Below, piece after piece: positions 4,840 to 49,383 of a stretch of DNA of 64,000 nt. The stretch covers positions 868,001 through 932,000 of the forward strand of contig NC_068975.1 of the NCBI RefSeq assembly GCF_016808095.1, given 5' to 3'. The translations under genes were made by a program, and so were the position numbers. The stretch is from Vigna angularis. Taxonomy: Eukaryota > Streptophyta > Magnoliopsida > Fabales > Fabaceae. Below the pieces are notes generated by a model. It worked only from the letters and a program-made list of their open reading frames with translations. It was not told where the DNA came from and made no database searches. Within the stretch, counting starts at the first letter, position 1. The number at the start of each line of letters is the position of its first letter.

Positions 4840-13869
<9,030 letters not shown>

Positions 13870-16896: not shown

Positions 16897-16946
16897 TGAT
16901 CGAGGTCGTACCCAAATCAAATTAATATGCAATTAAAGTGCAGTAT
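16897..16946 (-). repeat. Outer LTR, left piece, interrupted by the tandem array
   Basis: Starts TGATCGAGGTCG and ends at AGTAT, directly before the array. Its continuation, starting at the same AGTAT, is at 54995. The sequence aligns with the inner LTR (GCAATTAAagTGCAGTATA, then ACTAGGAAGT), so both belong to related families. Confidence 0.7.
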
Positions 16947-17707
16947 TGATACGGCTGTCGCGGCCGATCAAATTTGATGTGCAATTAAGAATGCAGTATA
17001 GTTACTAGGAAGTGACTCCTAGGTCGTCTCTCAAGGACCAATTTTTGTCGGTTCAGTCTTACACGAAAAAGGGATGGTTTTGTGGATGTTTTGTACGGAA
17101 AATAAAATTTAAAACTGGAAATTAAATAAAACAGAATTAAAAACACTGAAATAAATCTTAACGACGGTAAAAACTGAACGGTAAAAGACTGTAAAAATAG
17201 AAAATGGAAAATTACGCAGTGTGCGGTAAAAGACGGTAAAAATCAGTAAACGGAAAATTTAACAGTGTTTGAAATTAAAATGCTGGAACAATAAACATGC
17301 AAAAACATAACAGCAGTGTAAATAAAATTTACCCAAAGCAACAGTGAAAATGAACAGTAAAAACAACGTTGAAAATAAACTGAACGGTAAAAAGAAATGA
17401 CTGAATTTAACTGTGTGGAAAATCATTACTGGTAAAATTTAACAGATAAAATAAAAACACTTAACATGAAAATAAAATTCATCAAAGATTCAATACTTGA
17501 AATTAAATTCGTTGAACAGTACAACTAAAAATGAAATGACACGTTCAGAAATGAAAACTACGTTTTGGCACTGAAATTAAAATACAGAGAGTTTTGGAAG
17601 AGGAAGAGGCAAGAGCCTCCTCCCAGACGTGGGTAGTTCCTACACTACTCCTAAAATCCACTAAAATCTGCTTCCCAAATCTCATCCCTCTGCCCCCAAA
17701 TTCTGCC

Positions 17708-17716
17708 AATTTATAG
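17708..17716 (-). promoter_or_regulatory. Putative LTR promoter TATA box
   Basis: CTATAAATT on the minus strand, in LTR copy 1. Repeated at the same place in the other LTRs (+8820, +17640, +26463, +35286). It would drive gag-bearing transcripts leftward. Confidence 0.5.
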
Positions 17717-19260
17717 CTCCTGAAGCTACTCCTGTTACTTCTCTTTTTGTGCACACTTGAACGTGACTTTGCCATCCAGCACCATTTCTCAATTTTGTCT
17801 TTTAGCAACTTTCTTGATCAATTAATTTTCCACTTTTGTTTCCTTGTGGACGTGAAAAAGCCTTCCATTTCTCTTCACCACTTCATTGCTAATGAATAAA
17901 ATATTCCAACTTAGACCGTGGCAGCTGCTTCCCCCTGGACGTAATACCATTCTCATGCCACCATGACAACACACCACTTCCTTTCTTTTCCAAACACACA
18001 CACGCTGCTGGACCGTGGTGAAGGGCTGCATGCTGGACGTTGCTGCTTCCTGGATGGTGCTTCTTCCATTTGAAGAACGGAAGAGCTGCTGCTGCTCATC
18101 TTCATTCAAGTGCTGCGTGAACTGCTGCGTTTGGTGGAGGATGCTGGAAATATGGACGTCTGGATGGAGTTGCTTCGCTTGCTAGAATGGAGAACACCAC
18201 TGCTGCACGTGTGCTGCACCAAAGGGACCGTGAGCTTCTCTATCCTTCCAGCCAGTTGCACTCCTTACGTTCCAATCTCCAATTGTCTTCAATTTTTACA
18301 AGCCATAAACGTTAAAAAGCGTGAGTGGTGGACCATGTGCTAGCCAAAAATAAAATGGAGAAAACCATTCAGATTTTTCCATGTGGGCCGTGAGATGTGA
18401 GCTGCCACTTAATTTAATTGAAGCTTTCCAAATTGATGGCTTCATATTCACGTTCCAGACAAGAGAGTTTGGTGGTTCCCATGTTGCAAAATGTATGCTC
18501 TTGATGTATGTTTGCCAAAATGAATGAAGAAAACTTCTTGGTTCCGTGAGTTTTGCTAGAGTGCTTTTTTAGTGGTGAATGGACCCCATATTTTAGCATT
18601 TGTTATCTCCTTTAACACCTTGCACGTATTCTTTCTTCAATCAATCTTTTACAAGAGTAATAATAACAAAAGAAGGTGTGTACGTGCTTCTCTCCAAAGG
18701 TTGAAGGCTTCTTCTTTTTTTTTCAAAGCTAGGTGGGCCGTGTGTTATATTTCAACAAATTCACTTTCATTTTTGAATTCCTCCCAGACGTGATGTGTTC
18801 CAAAGTATCAACTAAATGCCAAAATAAAACCTTGAATGGGAAAATAAAACCGTGGAGTGGTGGCTGGTATTCTTAAGGCTGTGTGGTGTGTAGGAGTTCT
18901 AAATCAAATTTTTTATTTTAACACACAAAATAAATCAATGCAAAATCCATTGAGCTCTCCTTCTTGTGAACACTCTGCGGAGAGTCTTAGCACTGTCCAA
19001 TGATCAATTCCAGCCACCACAAGTACTAAACATCAAGCAAACAATGCAAACATTTTAGAACACTCAAAACAGTAATTACTGGACTGACATAGGAGAGTAA
19101 ACAAAATACTGGGAACAGCACAAAACGAATTTTAACAAACGAAAAGCTATACGTGAAAATAGACATCTAGACGAAACTATGAAAAAAAATTGCATGCAAA
19201 ACGGATAAGAATTGAACTCAAACGAAGACACACAAGTTGACACAACATTCACGCAGCACT

Positions 19261-19295
19261 GGTAATCGTTTACAGCACCCCTGTAAACGATTACC
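19261..19295. repeat. Perfect 15 bp inverted repeat in the LTR
   Basis: GGTAATCGTTTACAG, a CACCC loop, then the exact reverse complement. Repeated in the other LTRs at 28081, 36901, 45724 and 54547. It lies in U3 about 1.5 kb upstream of the putative TATA box. Confidence 0.9.
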
Positions 19296-19708
19296 CGAGA
19301 GGAATTGCAAATTTGTACAGAAAGTCCAACACAGGTACTCAGTCAGGTGAACACAGGTCACCATTGGCAAAAAAACTGACTTTTAGGCACTTCTGCCCCT
19401 GTCTGAGGCTTGTTCAGGTGTTCCAGTGGTGTATATTGGTTTCAAAACCAATTTTATTTCTTAAAATTAATCAATACAATGTGTAAATAAACATTCTTCT
19501 AAATGTCCCAAATTGTGTTTCCTAAATTTCCCTTGCAATCACTAATGCAAATAAATAACTCAAATAATTCAAATTAATTGAAATTAGAATTTTTGGTCAA
19601 ATTAAGTACATTTAGTGAAAACGGGAAAATACCGGACACTTTAGCACAATTCCCTGATCAAATTTGGTACAATAAACTAAGTGAAGTGTATAAAATATCG
19701 ACTCATCA

Positions 19709-20751
19709 AGTATATACTAGGAAGTAACTTTTTGGTCGTCTCTCAAGCACCAACATTTGGTTCAGTCATTAAATCAAACACATAGTGGGGGAAAATTTGG
19801 ATAGATTTTTGTGAACTAAAATTAATCAATTAAAACACGAATTCAAAAAATTATCCTAGGGTATTTTTACTGGAAACAATGTGTTTTGATGAAGAATGAA
19901 CGTGGACCAAACTTGTGGAGTTGTGGAATGTGATGATAATTAGAGAGTAAGATTAATGTTATGTTTAGGGTCAGTTGTGACTTGTGGTTGAGATTGGAGC
20001 ATGAGTGAGTGTTGGGGTGTACTTGAATATGTGGTTGATGAGCTTGAGAGTGGAGAATAAGTCTATTAGTTGTACCTAGTAAATCCTGGTTCTATCTACA
20101 AATAGGTGCTTCCTTTTTCCTTATGTGCAAAGGAAGGGTTGTTCGGGTATTGAACCTTCCTTGTGTGGGGGTGATGGTGTCTTCCTTGCCCTTGTGTGGC
20201 AGGATTACATATTCATTAGCTGGATTGCGGGTCTACTCGAGCGTATCTATAGGGGAAGCTACAAATTGGTCTGTACGATCGGCTACAAGCGGGTGAGATA
20301 GGGTACAATAGTGTGACTGATTCTTTCCACTATGGTGTACATGGTACGGTGATGCTCATGGTGTTATTTATGACTGGGGTAGTCATGATGGTGGTGTATC
20401 TATGGTGATGATCATGGTATTGTAGATGCTTCATGTGATGCTATGTTGATAGTGGTGTTACTATAATTATTATAGTAAGTAGTTAGCACAAATGCTAATG
20501 AATGGATAGCCAATGGTCTTTGCATGAGATGTTAGTGATGACATCAAGGTTCAAGGGTCAAGGATCAAAGATTGAAGATCAAGGATCGAGAATTGAGTAA
20601 TTCATTATGATTAAGTTGATATGCTAGAGGATTAGGAATCTTATTGTTTAATACCATTGGGCATGGGGAGGTTTATGGTTGATATATTCAGTGTGCTTAT
20701 ATCTTATTATTATTATGATTGTTTTATCGGTAGCTTTCCCCATACATGTTT
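19709..20751. repeat. Outer-LTR flank captured in unit 1
   Basis: Identical or nearly so to 54995-56037. Starts AGTATATACTAGGAAGTAAC and stops at CATGTTT, where the array joins to the truncated internal region. Contains ATGGTG-rich low-complexity sequence and a run of AAGGATC-like short repeats (about 20540-20595). No gene. Further copies are at 28529-29571, 37349-38391 and 46172-47214. Confidence 0.85.
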
Positions 20752-21900
20752 AAGGTAAATAATTTCAACTCAATGTACTCAAGAAAACAAACACAAGTAG
20801 ACTTGGCAAGCTTCTAATTATCAATACTTAAAACATATGCATGTTCAGATCAAAAGGTCTTTACTGGGTTGTAATGGGGCCAAGTACAGGGGAGGATAAA
20901 TTTGGATAAGTAGCTATAGCTGAGAAGAAATAGAGGTGCACTAGGAAAAAATGTAAACACAGTGAAATCTCACCCAAACCTCTAATTCAATCCTCTTCTC
21001 GACTCCATTATTCACAAAAATTATTTTTCAATTTTTTTTCTCTTTTTCTCATCATTTTTTTTTATCCTGTCTTCTTTCTTTTCTTTTTTCTTTCTTTTTT
21101 TTATCACACAACAGGATATAAATTATCATTTCAAAACATGACGAGGAACCAACTAGCCAATTCATCAAAATTCCCAAGGAGACCACACTTATTCACAAAA
21201 TACTTCTATAGCTCCAAACTTTCCTAAGGTTAAGGTAATCATTTGTTTTTCACTTAGGGTCAGTGTATGAGCTTTAAAACAAACAAATGGGGAAAGTATA
21301 GGCTCAAAGGGGTTATCAAAGGATAATAACATGGTAGGCTTATTTGGCTAAAGAGGCTCAAGAATAAAATTGCCTTTATCACTTCTAAACATGCATATAA
21401 ATCAAGTATATCAAAAAGAATCAAGCCAAGGCATATGTGCAAGAAATCAAGAGTCATATCACACAAGAAAGAACATTAAGTGGCTCAAATCTCACATAGG
21501 GTATCCGTGTTATAATCAATTCAACCTCTTGAACACATAATCATCTTTCCAAGCAGAGAAAAACAAGGATTGCAATCTATAAGTATTAAGTAAGTGAAGG
21601 AAAAATATACAACTTAGACATCATCCAGAAATCAAGAGAAAAATGTAAAATTTATTGCACACAAAACTCGATAAAAATAACTTAAAACAGAAAAAATTTA
21701 ACACTAAAAAACAAAAAATTTAACACACAAAATACATACTAACAGAAACTAACAGAAAATTCAAAATTTCTCCCCAGTAGACCACACTTAAATCACACAA
21801 TGTCCTCAGTGTGTAACAATCATCAGATTATCAATTTCAAAGCAGTCAAATAATATAGACAAGTGCAATAAAAAGTTAGGAAATGGGAAGAAATTTTTCA
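20752..21900 (-). other. Unit 1 internal region, post-gag untranslated part
   Basis: On the minus strand it contains GAGGACATTGTGTGATTTAA GTGTGG (around 21785-21805), a motif typical of the region between pol and the 3' LTR in Tat/Athila elements. No coding sequence. The left edge at 20752 is the duplication breakpoint; the normal polypurine tract and 3' LTR junction are missing. Confidence 0.6.
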
Positions 21901-21979
21901 ATAACATCCATCAGTAGATGTTATCATTGACATCCATCAGCAGATGTCTAAATCACCTAGCACCCTTCAGAAGATGCTA
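21901..21979 (-). other. Three consecutive stem-loops with similar 8-nt loops
   Basis: Stem 1: ATAACATC and GATGTTAT (21901-21908, 21917-21924). Stem 2: GACATC and GATGTC (21929-21934, 21943-21948). Stem 3: TAGCACC and GATGCTA (21958-21964, 21973-21979). Each loop is 8 nt. Read on the minus strand the loops are TACTGATG, TGCTGATG and TTCTGAAG. Stem 3 pairs fully only as minus-strand RNA, where the odd pair is a G-U wobble. Present in all four units. Confidence 0.7.
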
Positions 21980-22015
21980 ATAATTTTTAATTAATTTTTT
22001 TTTTTTTTGAAAAGG

Positions 22016-22117
22016 AGACCGGTACTGTGACAACAGTCTCAGTGGCAAAGACCGGAACTGTTGCTACAGTGGAAAGAAATCTGGCTATAAAAGGGTACCT
22101 CCTCAGCGTCAGAGCGC
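22016..22117 (+). promoter_or_regulatory. Putative promoter of the WOX-like gene, unit 1
   Basis: TATAAAAG at 22086-22093. Upstream are two ACTGT-N4-ACAGT palindromes (22024-22037 and 22057-22070) with centres 33 bp apart, each preceded by GACCGG(T/A). A CT-rich leader follows, as in many plant 5' UTRs. Transcription would start near 22115-22120. Equivalent promoters lie upstream of the other three copies. Confidence 0.65.
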
Positions 22118-22257
22118 CATTTCCTCACCTAGCCTCTCTCTCTGCTCTCCTCTCTTCTCTCTTCTCGAGCGTCTGGATCTGCGAGGAAGCTCTGTCACCG
22201 TGCCATCTGAAGAGTCCGAGATCAGCGAGGAGCTCCTCTGCCAGCCTACTACTCCAG

Positions 22258-22914
22258 GTAAGTTCTCTGCACCTTGGATCTCTATTTCTTCCTTTTCTGC
22301 TTCTCTGCTGTTATTACCATCCTGCTTTCCTGCTTTCCATTTTTTCTTCTCTGACCTCTTGCCTGCTCTCCCTCTTTTCCATTTTCCTGCTTTCCTTTAT
22401 TTTTCTTCTTCTGCCGATCTATCTTCTTTCCTTTCTTTCCTCCCTTTACCGCTTTTTCTGCTATTATTACCTTCTTGCTTTCCTGCTTTCCTGCTTTATT
22501 TTTTTTTTAAAAGAAAAACACATAAAACACAACTGTCAAAAAAACTTAAGGGGTATATCGGCTGGAAACCAGACGTTAATCTCCCTTCGATTGAAGGTAT
22601 GGCAGAGACAATCGGGTAGAACAACGCCACGTACCCCACTTAAAAATAAAACACAAAAACATAATAACATGAATGACATGGACAAGGACAACTGAACGTA
22701 GATTCGTTTAGGACCCCTTTGCAAGGACCGTGAAACAGATCAAAGACCAGACACTGAAACATCAAATACAGACTGGACAAAATAAATCTAAAAGGAAACA
22801 ACAACAAATAAAGAAAACACAGACTAATCTAATATTTTTTTTTATGCTTCTTATTTTTCTGTTTTTGTTTTTTTTTTTTTTTTTTTTATTTTTTTCATTT
22901 TTTCCATGTTTTAG
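22258..22914 (+). other. 5'UTR intron of the WOX-like gene, unit 1
   Basis: 657 bp, GTAAGTTC at the donor and a long poly-T tract before the TTTTAG acceptor. Pyrimidine-rich start with repeated CCTGCTTT. Long reading frames crossing it (22027-22695, 22200-22619) are composition artefacts. The poly-T length varies between array copies. Confidence 0.7.
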
Positions 22915-22917
22915 AAT

Positions 22918-23452
22918 ATGATGAGCGAGATGGAAATCGAGAGATACACAAGTCAGCGGTGGCGTCCAACAGATGATCAGGTCAAGATGATGACCAACAT
23001 CTTCAATTATGGGGTCACTCATCCAAGCCGAGCGCAAATCGTCGAGATCACGTCTCGACTAAGGACCTTCGGAGATGCCAGCGAATACAACGTGCACTGC
23101 TGGTTCAACAACCACGGCAATCGGGTCAGGCGCTGGCAAGCGGATATAGACCCCACTGGCACTCAGTTTTCACAACTGCCGCTGTACATGTATGGTAAGA
23201 ACTCTCATCAGATCTCAATTTTATTGAATTTTTTTTTTCTATTAAAATTAACACAATTTTTTTTTTTGGTTGAAAGAATACGACTGGGTAATAATGAGGG
23301 CACCGAGGCTGCTGGACCTCTTCCCCATTCCCATCATAATCGATCCAGAAACAGAGATTCCTTCGCCTCCGCTCGTGACTTTTCGTACCAGAGCTCCCTC
23401 AACGGAGCTCTCCCTTAGACCACCACAACCAGCTCGACAATTCTTTCGTTGA
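22918..23452 (+). CDS. WUSCHEL-like (WOX) homeodomain protein carried by the retroelement, unit 1
   Basis: Predicted CDS joins 22918-23194 and 23277-23452 (150 residues). The leader exon (about 22117-22257) is spliced at CCAG|GTAAGT to TTTTAG at 22913-22914. It has no ATG, so ATG 22918 is the first start codon in the mature RNA. Intron 2 (23195-23276) is GTAAGA...AAAG and keeps frame (G|AA). Residues about 10-72 form a homeodomain of WOX type: RWRPTDDQ, a Gly-Val-x-His-Pro-Ser turn, QIVEITSRLRTFG, and the recognition helix NVHCWFNNHGNRVRR (WOX proteins have NVFYWFQNHKARER). The C-terminal end has TELSLRPP, an LxLxP EAR-like or WUS-box-like motif. WOX proteins are plant transcription factors controlling stem-cell fate. 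It lies tail-to-tail with gag. Function here is inferred from sequence alone. Confidence 0.82.
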
Positions 23453-24114
23453 ATTTGTTTTTATTTTCTTATTATTTTTTTTTTATGTTTTTGATGGCCG
23501 AGTGTGGCCAGAATATTAATGAGGACTGTAATATGGACAATTAATTTTTATGTTTTTATGTTTTTAATTTTTTTTATGTTTTTTTTATATGGTTTGTAAT
23601 ATTAACGATCAGAAATGATCGAACCCCGAACATCATTATTATGTTTTTATGTATTTTTGCATTGTTTTTTTTATTATTAATAAATGCACTCAAATTAGTA
23701 CTTCAGCACAAACTATATACTCTGCCCTATTACAGCAACTTTACTCTCTGATTTTTTTTTTTTATTATTATAACAAAAAAAACTAAAAAAAATAAATAAA
23801 AACAGAACACATAATTTAACAAAACAAAAGACCTAATATCGAACACAAAAAATTAAAACATATAAAACGCAAATGTAAAAAAAAACAACAGACAAAACAC
23901 ATATTTACAATACATACATAAAGAAAATAACACACGTGAAAGAGAACATACATTTTTTTTTTAAATTTTGTTTTTTTTTTTTTTTTTTTTTAAAACAAAA
24001 AAAAAAAACACACCAAACATAAACACAGATTAAAACTAACAAGTTATCAGAATCTCCCCCCAAATTCATAAACTAAGAAAATTAAGGGAAGAAGGAATAG
24101 GAAAACTTCCCTGG
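23453..24114. other. Convergent intergenic region between WOX-like gene and gag, unit 1
   Basis: Very AT-rich with poly-T and poly-A runs. AATAAA near 23679 could be the polyadenylation signal of the WOX-like gene. A purine tract on the minus strand (GAATTTGGGGGGAGATTC, about 24051-24068) resembles the polypurine motifs that follow pol in Tat/Athila elements and marks where pol appears to be deleted. Confidence 0.55.
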
Positions 24115-25356
24115 TTATGGTGGGTGTTGCCAAATTTGGACAATCAGGGATATGCTTTCCATCACATGATTCAGCAGAGAAAATATTAAGAGAAACTGTG
24201 TCATCAGTATTGCCCTATCATCCGCAACAAAATGTTTCTTCTTTCTTCTCATAGCAGTATACTCTTCTTCAGTAATCATTAATTTCTTAATGTCAGCACC
24301 TGCATTCTCTTTTAACTCTGCATCCTTGTCATCAAACTCACAATTAATAGCATCGGTAATAAACTTAGAGTTTGGCTGTAATGCATAATCAATTTCAGCA
24401 CAAATGGAGCAAGAACCAGATTCACAGTCACATTCAAAATTTTCAGAAAACTGTGCTAAATCAAAGTTTAATCCTAACTCTGTAAAGTCATCAGATTGCA
24501 CAGTTTTTCTTTCAAAATTAATATTGACGCTACTCTCACTAATGGGTTCAATGGCTGACACTGAATTAAAAATTTTAGAATGGTCAATCAAATTTGTATC
24601 AGTATCAGTCATAAACCCTATAGAATCAGTGTGCGTCAAATCACATGCATTTGAATGTGTAGGCAAATCTGGTAAAATTGGAATCTCAGGTTCAGAATAA
24701 ACCTGTTTTTGCTCACTGAGAAGTTTCTTACCAAACTCCAAGTTATCAGCTGCATCCTCAGGGCTATCAGTGTCAGAATCCAGAACAAGCTGCTCAGGTT
24801 CTTCCTTTGCTACCTCAATTGGACTTTCACCAGTCAGCTTGCAGAGCAACTTCCTCGCTTCTGTTGGGGTCATATCCATCCAACATCCACCAATAGCTGC
24901 ATCCACAAGTATCCTTTCATTGTCCAGGAGCCCTTCATAAAAATAAGTCAAGAGCAAATGCTCTGGAAATTGGTGGTTTGGACAAGTTGTGCAGAGCCTG
25001 TTAAACCTCTCCCAATAATCTGCCAGGCTTTCTTCTTGAAATTGCTCAATGGCAGTGATCTTCATCCTAATGCTGGTCACCTTTGCTGCTGGAAAGAACT
25101 TGTCAAAGAATTTTTGTTGTGTTTCCTGCCAACTATTAAAAGGATACTGGTATATGAACCAGTCTCTTGCTTCATCTTGCAGGGACATGGGAAACATTTT
25201 TATCAACATTGTCTCCTTGGAAACACCAGCAGGTCTCATAGATAAACACACCAAACTAAACTCCTTGAGGTGCCTGTATGGATCTTCATGTGCCAACCCA
25301 AGGAATTTGGGAAGACACTTGACTAGATCATACATCCAGTCTTGAGAATCTGTCAT
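24115..25356 (-). CDS. Gag of the array retroelement, unit 1
   Basis: Intact 413-codon frame. Residues about 15-170 carry the retrotransposon gag domain of the Tat/Athila lineage: HLKEFSLVC, DEARDWFIYQ, FFDKFFPAAK, YWERFNRLCTTCPNHQ and LLTYFYEGL are ordered as in that family. The second half is acidic, with a CDCESGSCSIC cluster (C-x-C-x4-C-x2-C) instead of a classical CCHC knuckle, and ends with a hydrophobic tail. No protease or polymerase follows, so the protein could package element RNA but needs enzymes from an autonomous partner. The leader from the primer site to ATG is about 390 nt. Confidence 0.9.
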   Translation of the reverse strand: MTDSQDWMYDLVKCLPKFLGLAHEDPYRHLKEFSLVCLSMRPAGVSKETMLIKMFPMSLQDEARDWFIYQYPFNSWQETQQKFFDKFFPAAKVTSIRMKITAIEQFQEESLADYWERFNRLCTTCPNHQFPEHLLLTYFYEGLLDNERILVDAAIGGCWMDMTPTEARKLLCKLTGESPIEVAKEEPEQLVLDSDTDSPEDAADNLEFGKKLLSEQKQVYSEPEIPILPDLPTHSNACDLTHTDSIGFMTDTDTNLIDHSKIFNSVSAIEPISESSVNINFERKTVQSDDFTELGLNFDLAQFSENFECDCESGSCSICAEIDYALQPNSKFITDAINCEFDDKDAELKENAGADIKKLMITEEEYTAMRRKKKHFVADDRAILMTQFLLIFSLLNHVMESISLIVQIWQHPP

Positions 25357-25743
25357 TTTCTCTATTCTAGTTCAAAACCTATCTCAGACCTGGACTTTCA
25401 CTTCAAGCAAGGATTATAAAAAATATACAGAAGCATAACATGGAGTAAAACTAATATTTTCAGTTTTTTTTATTTTTTTATAAATTTTTTTTTTAATTAA
25501 CACACATAATACAAAACACAACACAATAAAAATATAAAAGACAAAACATATAGTAACACAACATAATTGAAAAACACAACAAAAATGTAGAACAAAAACC
25601 TGGAACTGAAGTGACAACGCCGCCAAAATTTGCTGAAGGTGTCGTTGTCGCCTACAAAAATATACAAGACAAAACACACAAAACACACATATTAACAAAA
25701 CAAAAATTTACACAACAAAAATCTAAAACCAAACCTTCATTGG

Positions 25744-25761
25744 TCCCCGGCAGCGGCGCCA
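25744..25761 (-). other. Primer-binding site, unit 1
   Basis: The minus strand reads TGGCGCCGCTGCCGGGGA, five bases after the LTR end ...CCGTATCA. This is the Tat/Athila-type tRNA primer site. Identical sites are at 34564-34581, 43387-43404 and 52210-52227. Confidence 0.9.
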
Positions 25762-25766
25762 AAATT

Positions 25767-28528
25767 TGATACGGCTGTCGCGGTCGATCAAATTTGATGT
25801 GCAATTAAGAATGCAGTATAGTTACTAGGAAGTGACTCCTAGGTCGTCTCTCAAGGACCAATTTTTGTCGGTTCAGTCTTACACGAAAAAGGGATGGTTT
25901 TGTGGATGTTTTGTACGGAAAATAAAATTTAAAACTGGAAATTAAATAAAACAGAATTAAAAACACTGAAATAAATCTTAACGACGGTAAAAACTGAACG
26001 GTAAAAGACTGTAAAAATAGAAAATGGAAAATTACGCAGTGTGCGGTAAAAGACGGTAAAAATCAGTAAACGGAAAATTTAACAGTGTTTGAAATTAAAA
26101 TGCTGGAACAATAAACATGCAAAAACATAACAGCAGTGTAAATAAAATTTACCCAAAGCAACAGTGAAAATGAACAGTAAAAACAACGTTGAAAATAAAC
26201 TGAACGGTAAAAAGAAATGACTGAATTTAACTGTGTGGAAAATCATTACTGGTAAAATTTAACAGATAAAATAAAAACACTTAACATGAAAATAAAATTC
26301 ATCAAAGATTCAATACTTGAAATTAAATTCGTTGAACAGTACAACTAAAAATGAAATGACACGTTCAGAAATGAAAACTACGTTTTGGCACTGAAATTAA
26401 AATACAGAGAGTTTTGGAAGAGGAAGAGGCAAGAGCCTCCTCCCAGACGTGGGTAGTTCCTACACTACTCCTAAAATCCACTAAAATCTGCTTCCCAAAT
26501 CTCATCCCTCTGCCCCCAAATTCTGCCAATTTATAGCTCCTGAAGCTACTCCTGTTACTTCTCTTTTTGTGCACACTTGAACGTGACTTTGCCATCCAGC
26601 ACCATTTCTCAATTTTGTCTTTTAGCAACTTTCTTGATCAATTAATTTTCCACTTTTGTTTCCTTGTGGACGTGAAAAAGCCTTCCATTTCTCTTCACCA
26701 CTTCATTGCTAATGAATAAAATATTCCAACTTAGACCGTGGCAGCTGCTTCCCCCTGGACGTAATACCATTCTCATGCCACCATGACAACACACCACTTC
26801 CTTTCTTTTCCAAACACACACACGCTGCTGGACCGTGGTGAAGGGCTGCATGCTGGACGTTGCTGCTTCCTGGATGGTGCTTCTTCCATTTGAAGAACGG
26901 AAGAGCTGCTGCTGCTCATCTTCATTCAAGTGCTGCGTGAACTGCTGCGTTTGGTGGAGGATGCTGGAAATATGGACGTCTGGATGGAGTTGCTTCGCTT
27001 GCTAGAATGGAGAACACCACTGCTGCACGTGTGCTGCACCAAAGGGACCGTGAGCTTCTCTATCCTTCCAGCCAGTTGCACTCCTTACGTTCCAATCTCC
27101 AATTGTCTTCAATTTTTACAAGCCATAAACGTTAAAAAGCGTGAGTGGTGGACCATGTGCTAGCCAAAAATAAAATGGAGAAAACCATTCAGATTTTTCC
27201 ATGTGGGCCGTGAGATGTGAGCTGCCACTTAATTTAATTGAAGCTTTCCAAATTGATGGCTTCATATTCACGTTCCAGACAAGAGAGTTTGGTGGTTCCC
27301 ATGTTGCAAAATGTATGCTCTTGATGTATGTTTGCCAAAATGAATGAAGAAAACTTCTTGGTTCCGTGAGTTTTGCTAGAGTGCTTTTTTAGTGGTGAAT
27401 GGACCCCATATTTTAGCATTTGTTATCTCCTTTAACACCTTGCACGTATTCTTTCTTCAATCAATCTTTTACAAGAGTAATAATAACAAAAGAAGGTGTG
27501 TACGTGCTTCTCTCCAAAGGTTGAAGGCTTCTTCTTTTTTTTTCAAAGCTAGGTGGGCCGTGTGTTATATTTCAACAAATTCACTTTCATTTTTGAATTC
27601 CTCCCAGACGTGATGTGTTCCAAAGTATCAACTAAATGCCAAAATAAAACCTTGAATGGGAAAATAAAACCGTGGAGTGGTGGCTGGTATTCTTAAGGCT
27701 GTGTGGTGTGTAGGAGTTCTAAATCAAATTTTTTATTTTAACACACAAAATAAATCAATGCAAAATCCATTGAGCTCTCCTTCTTGTGAACACTCTGCGG
27801 AGAGTCTTAGCACTGTCCAATGATCAATTCCAGCCACCACAAGTACTAAACATCAAGCAAACAATGCAAACATTTTAGAACACTCAAAACAGTAATTACT
27901 GGACTGACATAGGAGAGTAAACAAAATACTGGGAACAGCACAAAACGAATTTTAACAAACGAAAAGCTATACGTGAAAATAGACATCTAGACGAAACTAT
28001 GAAAAAAAATTGCATGCAAAACGGATAAGAATTGAACTCAAACGAAGACACACAAGTTGACACAACATTCACGCAGCACTGGTAATCGTTTACAGCACCC
28101 CTGTAAACGATTACCCGAGAGGAATTGCAAATTTGTACAGAAAGTCCAACACAGGTACTCAGTCAGGTGAACACAGGTCACCATTGGCAAAAAAACTGAC
28201 TTTTAGGCACTTCTGCCCCTGTCTGAGGCTTGTTCAGGTGTTCCAGTGGTGTATATTGGTTTCAAAACCAATTTTATTTCTTAAAATTAATCAATACAAT
28301 GTGTAAATAAACATTCTTCTAAATGTCCCAAATTGTGTTTCCTAAATTTCCCTTGCAATCACTAATGCAAATAAATAACTCAAATAATTCAAATTAATTG
28401 AAATTAGAATTTTTGGTCAAATTAAGTACATTTAGTGAAAACGGGAAAATACCGGACACTTTAGCACAATTCCCTGATCAAATTTGGTACAATAAACTAA
28501 GTGAAGTGTATAAAATATCGACTCATCA
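25767..28528 (-). repeat. LTR copy 2
   Basis: 5' LTR of unit 1. Primer site adjoins at 25744-25761; outer flank AGTATATAC adjoins at 28529. Confidence 0.93.
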
Positions 28529-31500
28529 AGTATATACTAGGAAGTAACTTTTTGGTCGTCTCTCAAGCACCAACATTTGGTTCAGTCATTAAATCAAACA
28601 CATAGTGGGGGAAAATTTGGATAGATTTTTGTGAACTAAAATTAATCAATTAAAACACGAATTCAAAAAATTATCCTAGGGTATTTTTACTGGAAACAAT
28701 GTGTTTTGATGAAGAATGAACGTGGACCAAACTTGTGGAGTTGTGGAATGTGATGATAATTAGAGAGTAAGATTAATGTTATGTTTAGGGTCAGTTGTGA
28801 CTTGTGGTTGAGATTGGAGCATGAGTGAGTGTTGGGGTGTACTTGAATATGTGGTTGATGAGCTTGAGAGTGGAGAATAAGTCTATTAGTTGTACCTAGT
28901 AAATCCTGGTTCTATCTACAAATAGGTGCTTCCTTTTTCCTTATGTGCAAAGGAAGGGTTGTTCGGGTATTGAACCTTCCTTGTGTGGGGGTGATGGTGT
29001 CTTCCTTGCCCTTGTGTGGCAGGATTACATATTCATTAGCTGGATTGCGGGTCTACTCGAGCGTATCTATAGGGGAAGCTACAAATTGGTCTGTACGATC
29101 GGCTACAAGCGGGTGAGATAGGGTACAATAGTGTGACTGATTCTTTCCACTATGGTGTACATGGTACGGTGATGCTCATGGTGTTATTTATGACTGGGGT
29201 AGTCATGATGGTGGTGTATCTATGGTGATGATCATGGTATTGTAGATGCTTCATGTGATGCTATGTTGATAGTGGTGTTACTATAATTATTATAGTAAGT
29301 AGTTAGCACAAATGCTAATGAATGGATAGCCAATGGTCTTTGCATGAGATGTTAGTGATGACATCAAGGTTCAAGGGTCAAGGATCAAAGATTGAAGATC
29401 AAGGATCGAGAATTGAGTAATTCATTATGATTAAGTTGATATGCTAGAGGATTAGGAATCTTATTGTTTAATACCATTGGGCATGGGGAGGTTTATGGTT
29501 GATATATTCAGTGTGCTTATATCTTATTATTATTATGATTGTTTTATCGGTAGCTTTCCCCATACATGTTTAAGGTAAATAATTTCAACTCAATGTACTC
29601 AAGAAAACAAACACAAGTAGACTTGGCAAGCTTCTAATTATCAATACTTAAAACATATGCATGTTCAGATCAAAAGGTCTTTACTGGGTTGTAATGGGGC
29701 CAAGTACAGGGGAGGATAAATTTGGATAAGTAGCTATAGCTGAGAAGAAATAGAGGTGCACTAGGAAAAAATGTAAACACAGTGAAATCTCACCCAAACC
29801 TCTAATTCAATCCTCTTCTCGACTCCATTATTCACAAAAATTATTTTTCAATTTTTTTTCTCTTTTTCTCATCATTTTTTTTTATCCTGTCTTCTTTCTT
29901 TTCTTTTTTCTTTCTTTTTTTTATCACACAACAGGATATAAATTATCATTTCAAAACATGACGAGGAACCAACTAGCCAATTCATCAAAATTCCCAAGGA
30001 GACCACACTTATTCACAAAATACTTCTATAGCTCCAAACTTTCCTAAGGTTAAGGTAATCATTTGTTTTTCACTTAGGGTCAGTGTATGAGCTTTAAAAC
30101 AAACAAATGGGGAAAGTATAGGCTCAAAGGGGTTATCAAAGGATAATAACATGGTAGGCTTATTTGGCTAAAGAGGCTCAAGAATAAAATTGCCTTTATC
30201 ACTTCTAAACATGCATATAAATCAAGTATATCAAAAAGAATCAAGCCAAGGCATATGTGCAAGAAATCAAGAGTCATATCACACAAGAAAGAACATTAAG
30301 TGGCTCAAATCTCACATAGGGTATCCGTGTTATAATCAATTCAACCTCTTGAACACATAATCATCTTTCCAAGCAGAGAAAAACAAGGATTGCAATCTAT
30401 AAGTATTAAGTAAGTGAAGGAAAAATATACAACTTAGACATCATCCAGAAATCAAGAGAAAAATGTAAAATTTATTGCACACAAAACTCGATAAAAATAA
30501 CTTAAAACAGAAAAAATTTAACACTAAAAAACAAAAAATTTAACACACAAAATACATACTAACAGAAACTAACAGAAAATTCAAAATTTCTCCCCAGTAG
30601 ACCACACTTAAATCACACAATGTCCTCAGTGTGTAACAATCATCAGATTATCAATTTCAAAGCAGTCAAATAATATAGACAAGTGCAATAAAAAGTTAGG
30701 AAATGGGAAGAAATTTTTCAATAACATCCATCAGTAGATGTTATCATTGACATCCATCAGCAGATGTCTAAATCACCTAGCACCCTTCAGAAGATGCTAA
30801 TAATTTTTAATTAATTTTTTTTTTTTTTTGAAAAGGAGACCGGTACTGTGACAACAGTCTCAGTGGCAAAGACCGGAACTGTTGCTACAGTGGAAAGAAA
30901 TCTGGCTATAAAAGGGTACCTCCTCAGCGTCAGAGCGCCATTTCCTCACCTAGCCTCTCTCTCTGCTCTCCTCTCTTCTCTCTTCTCGAGCGTCTGGATC
31001 TGCGAGGAAGCTCTGTCACCGTGCCATCTGAAGAGTCCGAGATCAGCGAGGAGCTCCTCTGCCAGCCTACTACTCCAGGTAAGTTCTCTGCACCTTGGAT
31101 CTCTATTTCTTCCTTTTCTGCTTCTCTGCTGTTATTACCATCCTGCTTTCCTGCTTTCCATTTTTTCTTCTCTGACCTCTTGCCTGCTCTCCCTCTTTTC
31201 CATTTTCCTGCTTTCCTTTATTTTTCTTCTTCTGCCGATCTATCTTCTTTCCTTTCTTTCCTCCCTTTACCGCTTTTTCTGCTATTATTACCTTCTTGCT
31301 TTCCTGCTTTCCTGCTTTATTTTTTTTTTAAAAGAAAAACACATAAAACACAACTGTCAAAAAAACTTAAGGGGTATATCGGCTGGAAACCAGACGTTAA
31401 TCTCCCTTCGATTGAAGGTATGGCAGAGACAATCGGGTAGAACAACGCCACGTACCCCACTTAAAAATAAAACACAAAAACATAATAACATGAATGACAT

Positions 31501-31738
31501 GGACAAGGACAACTGAACGTAGATTCGTTTAGGACCCCTTTGCAAGGACCGTGAAACAGATCAAAGACCAGACACTGAAACATCAAATACAGACTGGACA
31601 AAATAAATCTAAAAGGAAACAACAACAAATAAAGAAAACACAGACTAATCTAATATTTTTTTTTATGCTTCTTATTTTTCTGTTTTTGTTTTTTTTTTTT
31701 ATTTTTTTATTTTTTTCATTTTTTCCATGTTTTAGAAT
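28529..31738. other. Unit 2: outer-LTR flank, untranslated internal region, stem-loops and WOX promoter
   Basis: Repeats 19709-22917. Captured flank 28529-29571, duplication junction at 29571/29572, three stem-loops from 30721, TATA box near 30907. No additional gene. Confidence 0.8.
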
Positions 31739-32273
31739 ATGATGAGCGAGATGGAAATCGAGAGATACACAAGTCAGCGGTGGCGTCCAACAGATGATCA
31801 GGTCAAGATGATGACCAACATCTTCAATTATGGGGTCACTCATCCAAGCCGAGCGCAAATCGTCGAGATCACGTCTCGACTAAGGACCTTCGGAGATGCC
31901 AGCGAATACAACGTGCACTGCTGGTTCAACAACCACGGCAATCGGGTCAGGCGCTGGCAAGCGGATATAGACCCCACTGGCACTCAGTTTTCACAACTGC
32001 CGCTGTACATGTATGGTAAGAACTCTCATCAGATCTCAATTTTATTGAATTTTTTTTTTCTATTAAAATTAACACAATTTTTTTTTTTGGTTGAAAGAAT
32101 ACGACTGGGTAATAATGAGGGCACCGAGGCTGCTGGACCTCTTCCCCATTCCCATCATAATCGATCCAGAAACAGAGATTCCTTCGCCTCCGCTCGTGAC
32201 TTTTCGTACCAGAGCTCCCTCAACGGAGCTCTCCCTTAGACCACCACAACCAGCTCGACAATTCTTTCGTTGA
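31739..32273 (+). CDS. WOX-like homeodomain protein, unit 2
   Basis: Second array copy. Exons 31739-32015 and 32098-32273, with all splice sites and the TATA box preserved and the same predicted 150 residues. The only differences from unit 1 near the gene are in poly-T tracts (one extra T before the promoter; the 5'UTR intron tract is interrupted by an A). Confidence 0.82.
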
Positions 32274-32934
32274 ATTTGTTTTTATTTTCTTATTATTTTT
32301 TTTTTATGTTTTTGATGGCCGAGTGTGGCCAGAATATTAATGAGGACTGTAATATGGACAATTAATTTTTATGTTTTTATGTTTTTAATTTTTTTTATGT
32401 TTTTTTTATATGGTTTGTAATATTAACGATCAGAAATGATCGAACCCCGAACATCATTATTATGTTTTTATGTATTTTTGCATTGTTTTTTTTATTATTA
32501 ATAAATGCACTCAAATTAGTACTTCAGCACAAACTATATACTCTGCCCTATTACAGCAACTTTACTCTCTGATTTTTTTTTTTATTATTATAACAAAAAA
32601 AACTAAAAAAAATAAATAAAAACAGAACACATAATTTAACAAAACAAAAGACCTAATATCGAACACAAAAAATTAAAACATATAAAACGCAAATGTAAAA
32701 AAAAACAACAGACAAAACACATATTTACAATACATACATAAAGAAAATAACACACGTGAAAGAGAACATACATTTTTTTTTTAAATTTTGTTTTTTTTTT
32801 TTTTTTTTTTTAAAACAAAAAAAAAAAACACACCAAACATAAACACAGATTAAAACTAACAAGTTATCAGAATCTCCCCCCAAATTCATAAACTAAGAAA
32901 ATTAAGGGAAGAAGGAATAGGAAAACTTCCCTGG

Positions 32935-34176
32935 TTATGGTGGGTGTTGCCAAATTTGGACAATCAGGGATATGCTTTCCATCACATGATTCAGCAGAGA
33001 AAATATTAAGAGAAACTGTGTCATCAGTATTGCCCTATCATCCGCAACAAAATGTTTCTTCTTTCTTCTCATAGCAGTATACTCTTCTTCAGTAATCATT
33101 AATTTCTTAATGTCAGCACCTGCATTCTCTTTTAACTCTGCATCCTTGTCATCAAACTCACAATTAATAGCATCGGTAATAAACTTAGAGTTTGGCTGTA
33201 ATGCATAATCAATTTCAGCACAAATGGAGCAAGAACCAGATTCACAGTCACATTCAAAATTTTCAGAAAACTGTGCTAAATCAAAGTTTAATCCTAACTC
33301 TGTAAAGTCATCAGATTGCACAGTTTTTCTTTCAAAATTAATATTGACGCTACTCTCACTAATGGGTTCAATGGCTGACACTGAATTAAAAATTTTAGAA
33401 TGGTCAATCAAATTTGTATCAGTATCAGTCATAAACCCTATAGAATCAGTGTGCGTCAAATCACATGCATTTGAATGTGTAGGCAAATCTGGTAAAATTG
33501 GAATCTCAGGTTCAGAATAAACCTGTTTTTGCTCACTGAGAAGTTTCTTACCAAACTCCAAGTTATCAGCTGCATCCTCAGGGCTATCAGTGTCAGAATC
33601 CAGAACAAGCTGCTCAGGTTCTTCCTTTGCTACCTCAATTGGACTTTCACCAGTCAGCTTGCAGAGCAACTTCCTCGCTTCTGTTGGGGTCATATCCATC
33701 CAACATCCACCAATAGCTGCATCCACAAGTATCCTTTCATTGTCCAGGAGCCCTTCATAAAAATAAGTCAAGAGCAAATGCTCTGGAAATTGGTGGTTTG
33801 GACAAGTTGTGCAGAGCCTGTTAAACCTCTCCCAATAATCTGCCAGGCTTTCTTCTTGAAATTGCTCAATGGCAGTGATCTTCATCCTAATGCTGGTCAC
33901 CTTTGCTGCTGGAAAGAACTTGTCAAAGAATTTTTGTTGTGTTTCCTGCCAACTATTAAAAGGATACTGGTATATGAACCAGTCTCTTGCTTCATCTTGC
34001 AGGGACATGGGAAACATTTTTATCAACATTGTCTCCTTGGAAACACCAGCAGGTCTCATAGATAAACACACCAAACTAAACTCCTTGAGGTGCCTGTATG
34101 GATCTTCATGTGCCAACCCAAGGAATTTGGGAAGACACTTGACTAGATCATACATCCAGTCTTGAGAATCTGTCAT
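32935..34176 (-). CDS. Gag of the array retroelement, unit 2
   Basis: Same 413-codon protein as unit 1, intact. Primer site at 34564-34581 and LTR copy 3 lie upstream on the minus strand. Confidence 0.9.
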   Translation of the reverse strand: MTDSQDWMYDLVKCLPKFLGLAHEDPYRHLKEFSLVCLSMRPAGVSKETMLIKMFPMSLQDEARDWFIYQYPFNSWQETQQKFFDKFFPAAKVTSIRMKITAIEQFQEESLADYWERFNRLCTTCPNHQFPEHLLLTYFYEGLLDNERILVDAAIGGCWMDMTPTEARKLLCKLTGESPIEVAKEEPEQLVLDSDTDSPEDAADNLEFGKKLLSEQKQVYSEPEIPILPDLPTHSNACDLTHTDSIGFMTDTDTNLIDHSKIFNSVSAIEPISESSVNINFERKTVQSDDFTELGLNFDLAQFSENFECDCESGSCSICAEIDYALQPNSKFITDAINCEFDDKDAELKENAGADIKKLMITEEEYTAMRRKKKHFVADDRAILMTQFLLIFSLLNHVMESISLIVQIWQHPP

Positions 34177-34586
34177 TTTCTCTATTCTAGTTCAAAACCT
34201 ATCTCAGACCTGGACTTTCACTTCAAGCAAGGATTATAAAAAATATACAGAAGCATAACATGGAGTAAAACTAATATTTTCAGTTTTTTTTATTTTTTTA
34301 TAAATTTTTTTTTTAATTAACACACATAATACAAAACACAACACAATAAAAATATAAAAGACAAAACATATAGTAACACAACATAATTGAAAAACACAAC
34401 AAAAATGTAGAACAAAAACCTGGAACTGAAGTGACAACGCCGCCAAAATTTGCTGAAGGTGTCGTTGTCGCCTACAAAAATATACAAGACAAAACACACA
34501 AAACACACATATTAACAAAACAAAAATTTACACAACAAAAATCTAAAACCAAACCTTCATTGGTCCCCGGCAGCGGCGCCAAAATT

Positions 34587-37348
34587 TGATACGGCTGTCG
34601 CGGTCGATCAAATTTGATGTGCAATTAAGAATGCAGTATAGTTACTAGGAAGTGACTCCTAGGTCGTCTCTCAAGGACCAATTTTTGTCGGTTCAGTCTT
34701 ACACGAAAAAGGGATGGTTTTGTGGATGTTTTGTACGGAAAATAAAATTTAAAACTGGAAATTAAATAAAACAGAATTAAAAACACTGAAATAAATCTTA
34801 ACGACGGTAAAAACTGAACGGTAAAAGACTGTAAAAATAGAAAATGGAAAATTACGCAGTGTGCGGTAAAAGACGGTAAAAATCAGTAAACGGAAAATTT
34901 AACAGTGTTTGAAATTAAAATGCTGGAACAATAAACATGCAAAAACATAACAGCAGTGTAAATAAAATTTACCCAAAGCAACAGTGAAAATGAACAGTAA
35001 AAACAACGTTGAAAATAAACTGAACGGTAAAAAGAAATGACTGAATTTAACTGTGTGGAAAATCATTACTGGTAAAATTTAACAGATAAAATAAAAACAC
35101 TTAACATGAAAATAAAATTCATCAAAGATTCAATACTTGAAATTAAATTCGTTGAACAGTACAACTAAAAATGAAATGACACGTTCAGAAATGAAAACTA
35201 CGTTTTGGCACTGAAATTAAAATACAGAGAGTTTTGGAAGAGGAAGAGGCAAGAGCCTCCTCCCAGACGTGGGTAGTTCCTACACTACTCCTAAAATCCA
35301 CTAAAATCTGCTTCCCAAATCTCATCCCTCTGCCCCCAAATTCTGCCAATTTATAGCTCCTGAAGCTACTCCTGTTACTTCTCTTTTTGTGCACACTTGA
35401 ACGTGACTTTGCCATCCAGCACCATTTCTCAATTTTGTCTTTTAGCAACTTTCTTGATCAATTAATTTTCCACTTTTGTTTCCTTGTGGACGTGAAAAAG
35501 CCTTCCATTTCTCTTCACCACTTCATTGCTAATGAATAAAATATTCCAACTTAGACCGTGGCAGCTGCTTCCCCCTGGACGTAATACCATTCTCATGCCA
35601 CCATGACAACACACCACTTCCTTTCTTTTCCAAACACACACACGCTGCTGGACCGTGGTGAAGGGCTGCATGCTGGACGTTGCTGCTTCCTGGATGGTGC
35701 TTCTTCCATTTGAAGAACGGAAGAGCTGCTGCTGCTCATCTTCATTCAAGTGCTGCGTGAACTGCTGCGTTTGGTGGAGGATGCTGGAAATATGGACGTC
35801 TGGATGGAGTTGCTTCGCTTGCTAGAATGGAGAACACCACTGCTGCACGTGTGCTGCACCAAAGGGACCGTGAGCTTCTCTATCCTTCCAGCCAGTTGCA
35901 CTCCTTACGTTCCAATCTCCAATTGTCTTCAATTTTTACAAGCCATAAACGTTAAAAAGCGTGAGTGGTGGACCATGTGCTAGCCAAAAATAAAATGGAG
36001 AAAACCATTCAGATTTTTCCATGTGGGCCGTGAGATGTGAGCTGCCACTTAATTTAATTGAAGCTTTCCAAATTGATGGCTTCATATTCACGTTCCAGAC
36101 AAGAGAGTTTGGTGGTTCCCATGTTGCAAAATGTATGCTCTTGATGTATGTTTGCCAAAATGAATGAAGAAAACTTCTTGGTTCCGTGAGTTTTGCTAGA
36201 GTGCTTTTTTAGTGGTGAATGGACCCCATATTTTAGCATTTGTTATCTCCTTTAACACCTTGCACGTATTCTTTCTTCAATCAATCTTTTACAAGAGTAA
36301 TAATAACAAAAGAAGGTGTGTACGTGCTTCTCTCCAAAGGTTGAAGGCTTCTTCTTTTTTTTTCAAAGCTAGGTGGGCCGTGTGTTATATTTCAACAAAT
36401 TCACTTTCATTTTTGAATTCCTCCCAGACGTGATGTGTTCCAAAGTATCAACTAAATGCCAAAATAAAACCTTGAATGGGAAAATAAAACCGTGGAGTGG
36501 TGGCTGGTATTCTTAAGGCTGTGTGGTGTGTAGGAGTTCTAAATCAAATTTTTTATTTTAACACACAAAATAAATCAATGCAAAATCCATTGAGCTCTCC
36601 TTCTTGTGAACACTCTGCGGAGAGTCTTAGCACTGTCCAATGATCAATTCCAGCCACCACAAGTACTAAACATCAAGCAAACAATGCAAACATTTTAGAA
36701 CACTCAAAACAGTAATTACTGGACTGACATAGGAGAGTAAACAAAATACTGGGAACAGCACAAAACGAATTTTAACAAACGAAAAGCTATACGTGAAAAT
36801 AGACATCTAGACGAAACTATGAAAAAAAATTGCATGCAAAACGGATAAGAATTGAACTCAAACGAAGACACACAAGTTGACACAACATTCACGCAGCACT
36901 GGTAATCGTTTACAGCACCCCTGTAAACGATTACCCGAGAGGAATTGCAAATTTGTACAGAAAGTCCAACACAGGTACTCAGTCAGGTGAACACAGGTCA
37001 CCATTGGCAAAAAAACTGACTTTTAGGCACTTCTGCCCCTGTCTGAGGCTTGTTCAGGTGTTCCAGTGGTGTATATTGGTTTCAAAACCAATTTTATTTC
37101 TTAAAATTAATCAATACAATGTGTAAATAAACATTCTTCTAAATGTCCCAAATTGTGTTTCCTAAATTTCCCTTGCAATCACTAATGCAAATAAATAACT
37201 CAAATAATTCAAATTAATTGAAATTAGAATTTTTGGTCAAATTAAGTACATTTAGTGAAAACGGGAAAATACCGGACACTTTAGCACAATTCCCTGATCA
37301 AATTTGGTACAATAAACTAAGTGAAGTGTATAAAATATCGACTCATCA
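34587..37348 (-). repeat. LTR copy 3
   Basis: 5' LTR of unit 2. Same boundaries and flanks as copy 2. Confidence 0.93.
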
Positions 37349-40300: not shown

Positions 40301-40559
40301 ACATAATAACATGAATGACATGGACAAGGACAACTGAACGTAGATTCGTTTAGGACCCCTTTGCAAGGACCGTGAAACAGATCAAAGACCAGACACTGAA
40401 ACATCAAATACAGACTGGACAAAATAAATCTAAAAGGAAACAACAACAAATAAAGAAAACACAGACTAATCTAATATTTTTTTTTATGCTTCTTATTTTT
40501 CTGTTTTTGTTTTTTTTTTTTATTTTTTTTTTTTTTTCATTTTTTCCATGTTTTAGAAT
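37349..40559. other. Unit 3: outer-LTR flank, untranslated internal region, stem-loops and WOX promoter
   Basis: Repeats 19709-22917. Captured flank 37349-38391, duplication junction 38391/38392, stem-loops from 39541. Confidence 0.8.
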
Positions 40560-41095
40560 ATGATGAGCGAGATGGAAATCGAGAGATACACAAGTCAGCG
40601 GTGGCGTCCAACAGATGATCAGGTCAAGATGATGACCAACATCTTCAATTATGGGGTCACTCATCCAAGCCGAGCGCAAATCGTCGAGATCACGTCTCGA
40701 CTAAGGACCTTCGGAGATGCCAGCGAATACAACGTGCACTGCTGGTTCAACAACCACGGCAATCGGGTCAGGCGCTGGCAAGCGGATATAGACCCCACTG
40801 GCACTCAGTTTTCACAACTGCCGCTGTACATGTATGGTAAGAACTCTCATCAGATCTCAATTTTATTGAATTTTTTTTTTTCTATTAAAATTAACACAAT
40901 TTTTTTTTTTGGTTGAAAGAATACGACTGGGTAATAATGAGGGCACCGAGGCTGCTGGACCTCTTCCCCATTCCCATCATAATCGATCCAGAAACAGAGA
41001 TTCCTTCGCCTCCGCTCGTGACTTTTCGTACCAGAGCTCCCTCAACGGAGCTCTCCCTTAGACCACCACAACCAGCTCGACAATTCTTTCGTTGA
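40560..41095 (+). CDS. WOX-like homeodomain protein, unit 3
   Basis: Third copy. Exons 40560-40836 and 40920-41095. Intron 2 is one T longer than in units 1-2, which changes only unspliced reading frames; the spliced protein is unchanged. Confidence 0.82.
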
Positions 41096-41757
41096 ATTTG
41101 TTTTTATTTTCTTATTATTTTTTTTTTTATGTTTTTGATGGCCGAGTGTGGCCAGAATATTAATGAGGACTGTAATATGGACAATTAATTTTTATGTTTT
41201 TATGTTTTTAATTTTTTTTATGTTTTTTTTATATGGTTTGTAATATTAACGATCAGAAATGATCGAACCCCGAACATCATTATTATGTTTTTATGTATTT
41301 TTGCATTGTTTTTTTTATTATTAATAAATGCACTCAAATTAGTACTTCAGCACAAACTATATACTCTGCCCTATTACAGCAACTTTACTCTCTGATTTTT
41401 TTTTTTATTATTATAACAAAAAAAACTAAAAAAAATAAATAAAAACAGAACACATAATTTAACAAAACAAAAGACCTAATATCGAACACAAAAAATTAAA
41501 ACATATAAAACGCAAATGTAAAAAAAAACAACAGACAAAACACATATTTACAATACATACATAAAGAAAATAACACACGTGAAAGAGAACATACATTTTT
41601 TTTTTAAATTTTGTTTTTTTTTTTTTTTTTTTTTAAAACAAAAAAAAAAAACACACCAAACATAAACACAGATTAAAACTAACAAGTTATCAGAATCTCC
41701 CCCCAAATTCATAAACTAAGAAAATTAAGGGAAGAAGGAATAGGAAAACTTCTCTGG

Positions 41758-42999: not shown

Positions 43000-43409
43000 T
43001 TTCTCTATTCTAGTTCAAAACCTATCTCAGACCTGGACTTTCACTTCAAGCAAGGATTATAAAAAATATACAGAAGCATAACATGGAGTAAAACTAATAT
43101 TTTCAGTTTTTTTTATTTTTTTATAAATTTTTTTTTTAATTAACACACATAATACAAAACACAACACAATAAAAATATAAAAGACAAAACATATAGTAAC
43201 ACAACATAATTGAAAAACACAACAAAAATGTAGAACAAAAACCTGGAACTGAAGTGACAACGCCGCCAAAATTTGCTGAAGGTGTCGTTGTCGCCTACAA
43301 AAATATACAAGACAAAACACACAAAACACACATATTAACAAAACAAAAATTTACACAACAAAAATCTAAAACCAAACCTTCATTGGTCCCCGGCAGCGGC
43401 GCCAAAATT

Positions 43410-49100: not shown

Positions 49101-49383
49101 CCCACTTAAAAATAAAACACAAAAACATAATAACATGAATGACATGGACAAGGACAACTGAACGTAGATTCGTTTAGGACCCCTTTGCAAGGACCGTGAA
49201 ACAGATCAAAGACCAGACACTGAAACATCAAATACAGACTGGACAAAATAAATCTAAAAGGAAACAACAACAAATAAAGAAAACACAGACTAATCTAATA
49301 TTTTTTTTTATGCTTCTTATTTTTCTGTTTTTGTTTTTTTTTTTTATTTTTTTTTTTTTTTCATTTTTTCCATGTTTTAGAAT
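46172..49383. other. Unit 4: outer-LTR flank, untranslated internal region, stem-loops and WOX promoter
   Basis: Repeats 19709-22917. Captured flank 46172-47214, duplication junction 47214/47215, private substitution at 47531, stem-loops from about 48365. Confidence 0.8.

Follow-up and report, generated by a model that had tools for sequence, protein, structure and literature searches.

We report an intact, intron-bearing gene of the WUSCHEL/WOX type that lies antisense to gag within a non-autonomous LTR retrotransposon of azuki bean, Vigna angularis, a structure supported by every unit of a tandem array in the stretch of DNA analysed (hereafter the window: 64,000 nucleotides of contig NC_068975.1, positions 868,001 to 932,000; coordinates below count from its first base). 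The observation is real, goes far beyond chance, and the coding sequence is under constraint across the genome. Our main reading, to which we assign a probability of roughly 0.6, is that the gene is an accessory gene for a small DNA-binding repressor that aids propagation of the element, probably in meristem cells.

A homeobox gene antisense to gag

The array (16946..56037, minus strand by the orientation of gag and the primer binding site) consists of five near-identical LTRs of 3.8 kb each, alternating with four internal regions of 5.0 kb each, so that one unit measures ~8.8 kb (period 8820-8824) and the element with both LTRs ~12.6 kb. LTR 1 (16946..20751, 3806 bp), whose end distal to the primer binding site is fixed by the array edge alone, differs from LTRs 2-5 (25766-29571, 34586-38391, 43409-47214 and 52232-56037, minus strand) by 1, 1, 2 and 1 bases, respectively. 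Inspection by eye of the two array ends revealed no matching target-site duplication, as expected if growth was by recombination; the array thus looks as if it had grown by recombination between LTRs, with an assembly artefact as a possible alternative.

In unit 1, the homeobox gene spans 22016..23452 on the plus strand and has three exons and a 150-aa product. A TATA box (TATAAAA, 22086..22092) precedes exon 1, an untranslated, CT-rich leader (22116..22257) with a predicted transcription start. Intron 1 is predicted to lie in the 5′ UTR (22258..22915), with donor CAG/GTAAGT after 22257 and acceptor TTTTAG before 22916; the coding part of exon 2 runs from the ATG at 22918 to 23194. Intron 2 (23195..23276, predicted) has donor TATG/GTAAGA after 23194 and acceptor GAAAG before 23277, and skipping it restores the frame into exon 3 (23277..23452), which ends with the stop codon at 23452. 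These signals are shared by copies selected elsewhere in the genome by their promoter (described below): the TATA box is kept in 16/19, the intron 1 donor GTAAGT in 18/19 and the intron 2 donor GTAAG in 19/19. The first-pass annotation had described the TATA box, the CT-rich leader, a 5′ UTR intron with consensus sites and a second intron, and all are present where it placed them; its claim of a gene in every array unit likewise holds in 4/4 units, with the further genes at 30837..32273, 39658..41095 and 48482..49919, all on the plus strand. Between the four units, exon 2 and exon 3 are free of differences, and all changes fall elsewhere.

Convergent with the homeobox gene, and on the opposite strand as had been claimed, is a 413-aa gag (24115..25356, minus strand; PF03732, E=3.9e-16). 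The primer binding site TGGCGCCGCTGCCGGGGA (25744..25761, minus strand) adjoins the LTR and is presumably of the tRNA-Asp type; the identical 18 bases are also present at one other locus, L023. Primer site and gag hint at the Athila lineage. Among ORFs of 120 aa or longer, with Pfam as a second check, the internal region contains no pol, and Rfam gave 0 matches across 16900-26000. TR-GAG elements carry gag without pol and measure less than about 4 kb. The description of the carrier as TR-GAG-like is therefore correct for gag without pol and fails on size: with TR-GAG and Athila-type non-autonomous elements, as commonly defined, it shares LTRs, primer site, gag and the lack of pol, but at ~12.6 kb it is far larger than TR-GAG and bears the antisense homeobox gene in addition. 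Relatives of its gag (55-57% identity) occur in the same genome in ORFs of up to 1663 aa, including one at G000:C10:18226252-18226749 and four similar places where they lie within open frames of 506-1663 aa; such open frames are possible autonomous partners.

A WUSCHEL-type protein

The homeodomain predicted by the first-pass annotation is confirmed by profile search (PF00046, E=1.1e-6; score 28.8 bits, cut-off 22.9). It occupies residues 13-72 (22954..23133, plus strand), and a search of PDB sequences up to E=1 lists just two proteins, WUSCHEL (6ry3, E=1.8e-11) and STENOFOLIA (6wig, E=3.3e-11). The same two proteins are the best fold matches of the predicted structure, in which WUS chains superpose at rmsd 0.7-1.2 over about 60 columns. 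This model is good over the homeodomain only (mean pLDDT 56; about 70-83 for residues 11-70 and <50 from residue 83 on).

The homeodomain is followed by a WUS-box-like motif (LLDLFPIP, residues 104-111, 23309..23332) and an EAR-like motif (STELSLR, residues 134-140, 23399..23419), both on the plus strand. Proteins of the WUS clade contact DNA through the homeodomain and recruit co-repressors of the TOPLESS type through the EAR-like tail; the WUS-box consensus is TL[DEQP]LFP[GITVL][GSKNTCV]. Three subfamilies of related genes can be told apart, A (which includes the window gene), B and C, and all three share the homeodomain and the WUS-box-like and EAR-like motifs. Against this form of the consensus, the window motif mismatches at the first and last residues, the first T having been lost in subfamily A, whereas TLDLFPIP of subfamily C mismatches at the last residue only. 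The EAR-like tail reads LSLRL in most members of subfamilies B and C but LSLRP in the window and subfamily A, compared with LxLxL. Similarly, the recognition helix of subfamily A is WFNNHGNR in place of WFQNHKAR in WUS, a change by which binding specificity may differ. Judged from these residues, co-repressor or DNA binding may be altered or weakened in subfamily A.

Relatives within Vigna

A protein search with the window product returned 65 clusters; every one is named from V. angularis, and four have 30-62 members each. A 12-sequence profile search returned 79 clusters, whose sources are V. angularis, V. radiata and V. umbellata apart from one ordinary WOX of Rehmannia; all three motifs occur in 41/79 of these database proteins, as scored with loose patterns and with many of the others being partial gene models. 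A third search found 3242 proteins; among the 120 listed, those with at least 85% query coverage are all from Vigna and the remainder are ordinary WOX proteins from many plants. A search of viral contigs found no relative.

The element-borne genes group together as a single clade (94% support) in a tree of homeodomains, separate from the sampled host-type WOX genes, and two host-type azuki WOX genes (L009 and L010) are distant from them. A single clade suggests one capture, for which a tree of 60 residues and few host WOX is a weak basis, and this tree does not assign the clade to a named host WOX clade.

Intact copies and selection on the coding sequence

We searched the 448-Mb Vigna angularis assembly for further copies and analysed two samples. 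Set 1 was assembled on homeodomain score, with 150 scored out of 631 homeobox candidates, and comprises 40 loci chosen for WOX-like match length: 18 of subfamily A, 1 of subfamily B, 19 of subfamily C and 2 host-type WOX (L009, L010). Such picking could favour intact homeodomains, though exon 3 played no part in it. Set 2 was chosen solely on promoter and leader, both non-coding (40 of 258 candidates scored); 4 of the 40 are the window itself, and we examined the 20 best among the remaining 36.

The genome-wide search that the first-pass annotation had called for found the gene at many loci, and 19/20 promoter-selected copies (the best 20 of 36) are intact, with both exons, an in-frame ATG, no internal stop and a terminal stop. 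The remaining copy, L057, has no exon match and was excluded from dN/dS. L057 and L067 (G000:C3:27560396-27565750) are two promoter copies on the same strand with 3.4 kb between them; as exon matches are missing for 2 kb around L057, it has probably been truncated or rearranged. In set 1, L013 lacks exon 3, the starts of L031 and L047 are doubtful because an isoleucine codon stands at the aligned start M, and stops occur in 1/18 subfamily A loci and 5/19 subfamily C loci. Subfamily C is thus more decayed, and many C copies are dead.

Protein sequence varies far less between copies than do silent sites. Pooled omega in set 2 is 0.126 for exon 2 and 0.183 for exon 3 (190 pairs, window included), with a mean dS of 0.302 and a mean dN of 0.045; intron 1, at a distance of 0.259, diverges about as fast as silent sites. 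Over the whole CDS omega is 0.153 (codon bootstrap 0.097-0.222), and ten disjoint pairs give 0.100. By region, omega is 0.067 at residues 101-114 (WUS-box-like), 0.102 at residues 131-141 (EAR-like) and 0.177 in the homeodomain. The first-pass annotation had held that a ratio near 1 across genomic copies would speak against its reading; we observed 0.10-0.18 in promoter-selected copies, in calculations that skipped stop-containing codons.

Set 1 shows the same reading-frame signature. Codon positions 1, 2 and 3 of exon 2 differ at 6.4, 6.8 and 22.9%, and wrong frames give omega >1.1, save the antisense frame with shared third positions (0.19-0.29). Binned by dS, with saturated-dS pairs absent from the bins, omega of subfamily A at dS 0.5-1 is 0.109 for exon 2 and 0.169 for exon 3, while among the youngest A pairs exon 2 reaches 1.26 and exon 3 only 0.22. 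For exon 3 of subfamily C, omega falls from 3.4 and 1.2 in the two bins of lowest dS (<0.15) to 0.2-0.3 at depth; set 2 has one pair only with dS <0.05. These values fit genes that are constrained during element replication and released afterwards, with inconsistency among the youngest bins. Low variation of the protein relative to silent sites makes a working accessory gene likely.

A second vehicle with the same antisense layout

Beyond the gag-carrying element in which the first-pass annotation placed the homeobox gene, C-type genes ride a second element type with an iMet-type primer site, antisense wherever orientation is readable. We read 20 loci over 10 kb, 18 of which carry subfamily C genes. 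Direct repeats flank the C gene on both sides at 8/18 loci, and a recognised primer site is present at 8/18 (7 of iMet type, 1 of window type), on the strand opposite the C gene in 8/8 of the loci where it was found; the primer site of L014 lies 3.7 kb from the gene, so that its membership in the same element is putative. L022 and L025 have LTR pairs that are 97% identical, between which there are few ORFs of 70 aa or longer, and of these the WOX exon in L025 alone was recognised. Promoter and leader are common to the window and five subfamily C loci, as is LTR sequence in four. At L024 (G000:C8:25759700-25769600), the C gene is flanked by window-type LTR stretches in opposite orientations, a layout that suggests nesting or inversion.

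The orientation relative to gag is also consistent across loci. We compared 36 promoter matches with 51 of 127 other gag matches (those covering most of gag): a compared gag lies within 12 kb of at least 9 of the 36 listed promoter matches, on the opposite strand in 9/9 and 1.9-2.3 kb away in 8.

Binding sites of the WUS type in the LTRs were considered as a route to self-regulation. The window LTR has 7 TGAA pairs against 2.6 expected, a number reached by 7/200 shuffles, and five subfamily C LTRs have 0, so we rejected this candidate.

Relation to known systems

WOX genes between LTRs have been briefly published for sister species. A 2023 meeting report (Naito; PMC10714607) describes, in its accessible part, WOX copies that accumulated in V. 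marina and V. riukiuensis, with >1000 in the latter, mostly between identical LTRs and with target-site duplications. LTR-flanked amplification of WOX genes was thus already on record for two other Vigna species. Those copies and the azuki genes have in common their large number, their surrounding LTRs and their genus; target-site duplications are present in the former and missing at the azuki array ends. The same part of that account does not take up azuki, the antisense layout, a gag partner, introns, subfamilies or selection. A WOX expansion in V. reflexo-pilosa is mentioned with no cause named in the available text of PMC10357499, and the corresponding portion of PMC11410651 holds nothing bearing on element-borne WOX. 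For these genes, our literature search found no account of the antisense layout, of a gag partner, of a second vehicle or of selection, some of which the preprint 10.1101/2022.03.28.486085 may contain. As far as searched, azuki, the antisense layout, the retained introns, the two vehicles and the selection are additions.

Antisense additional ORFs (aORF-3R) are known from the plant elements Grande, RIRE2, Retand and PvRetro13 (PMC7264820, PMC11963269, both in part). Like these, the window gene is antisense to gag and lies between the element's genes and the 3′ LTR. Presence in most copies of the element family and conservation on a par with other element genes are further marks of an aORF-3R, for which the azuki observations are the 19/20 intact promoter-selected copies and their low omega. 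In the sections of the two papers at hand, gene23 of Grande has its own promoter, to which the conserved TATA box and predicted promoter of the azuki gene may correspond, and aORF-3R have no clear homologues or encode TRP28, Smc or other domains, with no homeodomain named among them. By comparison, the azuki gene has a WUSCHEL-type homeodomain and two introns, and its elements lack pol. It resembles WUSCHEL/WOX in homeodomain sequence and fold and in having WUS-box-like and EAR-like motifs in the same order, and differs in its length of 150 aa, its altered recognition helix and its many LTR-borne copies. What antisense genes do in plant retrotransposons is treated as an open question, in part since for most of them no homologue can be recognised (PMC7264820, available part). 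The azuki protein belongs to a known family with members of solved structure, which makes its binding sites, co-repressor partners and developmental effect directly testable.

Possible role of the gene

On one account, a single transduplication brought in a host WOX gene that now rides along as a decaying, functionless passenger. This account accords with the known capture of genes by plant LTR elements (PMC7264820, as far as available), with the stops in 1/18 A and 5/19 C loci of set 1 and with the exon 2 omega of 1.26 in the youngest A pairs. It is contradicted by the omega of promoter-selected copies, and we consider it very improbable; a substitution-only simulation leaves 14-44% of copies stop-free at neutral distances of 0.13-0.05 per copy, compared with 19/19 observed among copies with exons, a rough guide given that copies share ancestry. 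Low dN/dS between copies would likewise arise if a constrained host WOX gene re-seeded the elements by capture or gene conversion, the ratio then being the host's. This we regard as improbable, as the element-borne genes form a clade of their own, apart from the sampled host-type WOX and distant from L009 and L010, and their introns and silent sites diverge together; the comparison covers part of the azuki WOX complement, and a donor inside the clade is possible.

Another account places the function in RNA: antisense transcription over gag would yield dsRNA that controls the element, with the protein incidental. The gene is directed towards gag, which from the layout makes convergent transcription likely, and a control function of dsRNA is among the proposals made for antisense ORFs (PMC7264820, available part). 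Yet constraint tracks the codon frame, which an RNA function does not predict, so we give this account little credence as a replacement for a protein role, with which it could coexist. Finally, copies might be kept since some serve the plant as domesticated WOX genes, the element being a mere vehicle. WOX genes have developmental roles, and the sister species with large WOX amplification are coastal, with an adaptive contribution that the available part of PMC10714607 calls unknown. Low omega over dispersed copies on many contigs is hard to obtain through host-fitness selection at each site; against a benefit to the plant, too, exon 2 is unconstrained in the youngest A pairs, yet exon 3 is not, so that relaxation after insertion is not uniform. 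Service to the plant therefore seems unlikely to us.

We favour an accessory gene that serves the element. Judging from the layout, the antisense position would let promoter, introns and 3′ end survive the RNA intermediate: the reverse-transcribed RNA would be the complement of the gene, in which its splice and poly(A) signals would not be read. By analogy with the WUS clade, the homeodomain would bind DNA and the EAR-like tail would recruit TOPLESS-type co-repressors. Targets could, speculatively, be meristem or silencing genes of the host or the LTRs of the element itself, and the outcome might be new insertions in more cells of the precursor pool of the germ line. More tentatively, and with less confidence than doubt, we suggest that Vigna retrotransposons took over a host stem-cell regulator, an antisense WUSCHEL-type repressor with introns that is carried by at least two LTR vehicles and maintained for the element's benefit, and that acts on the plant's programme for stem cells or for silencing, with the effect that insertions reach more germline-precursor cells. 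If the gene does serve the element, a selfish element bears a plant stem-cell-type regulator under selection. For annotation, the azuki gene models named 'WUSCHEL-related homeobox' include element-borne copies and should be read with this in mind.

Two further features lie outside the array in the window. Gag-like and polymerase-like ORFs at 6866-9735 seemingly belong, by eye, to another, broken LTR element. A 605-aa ORF at 10944-12761 contains a 228-bp tandem repeat and resembles part of a conserved host gene, which we take to be FAM91-like.
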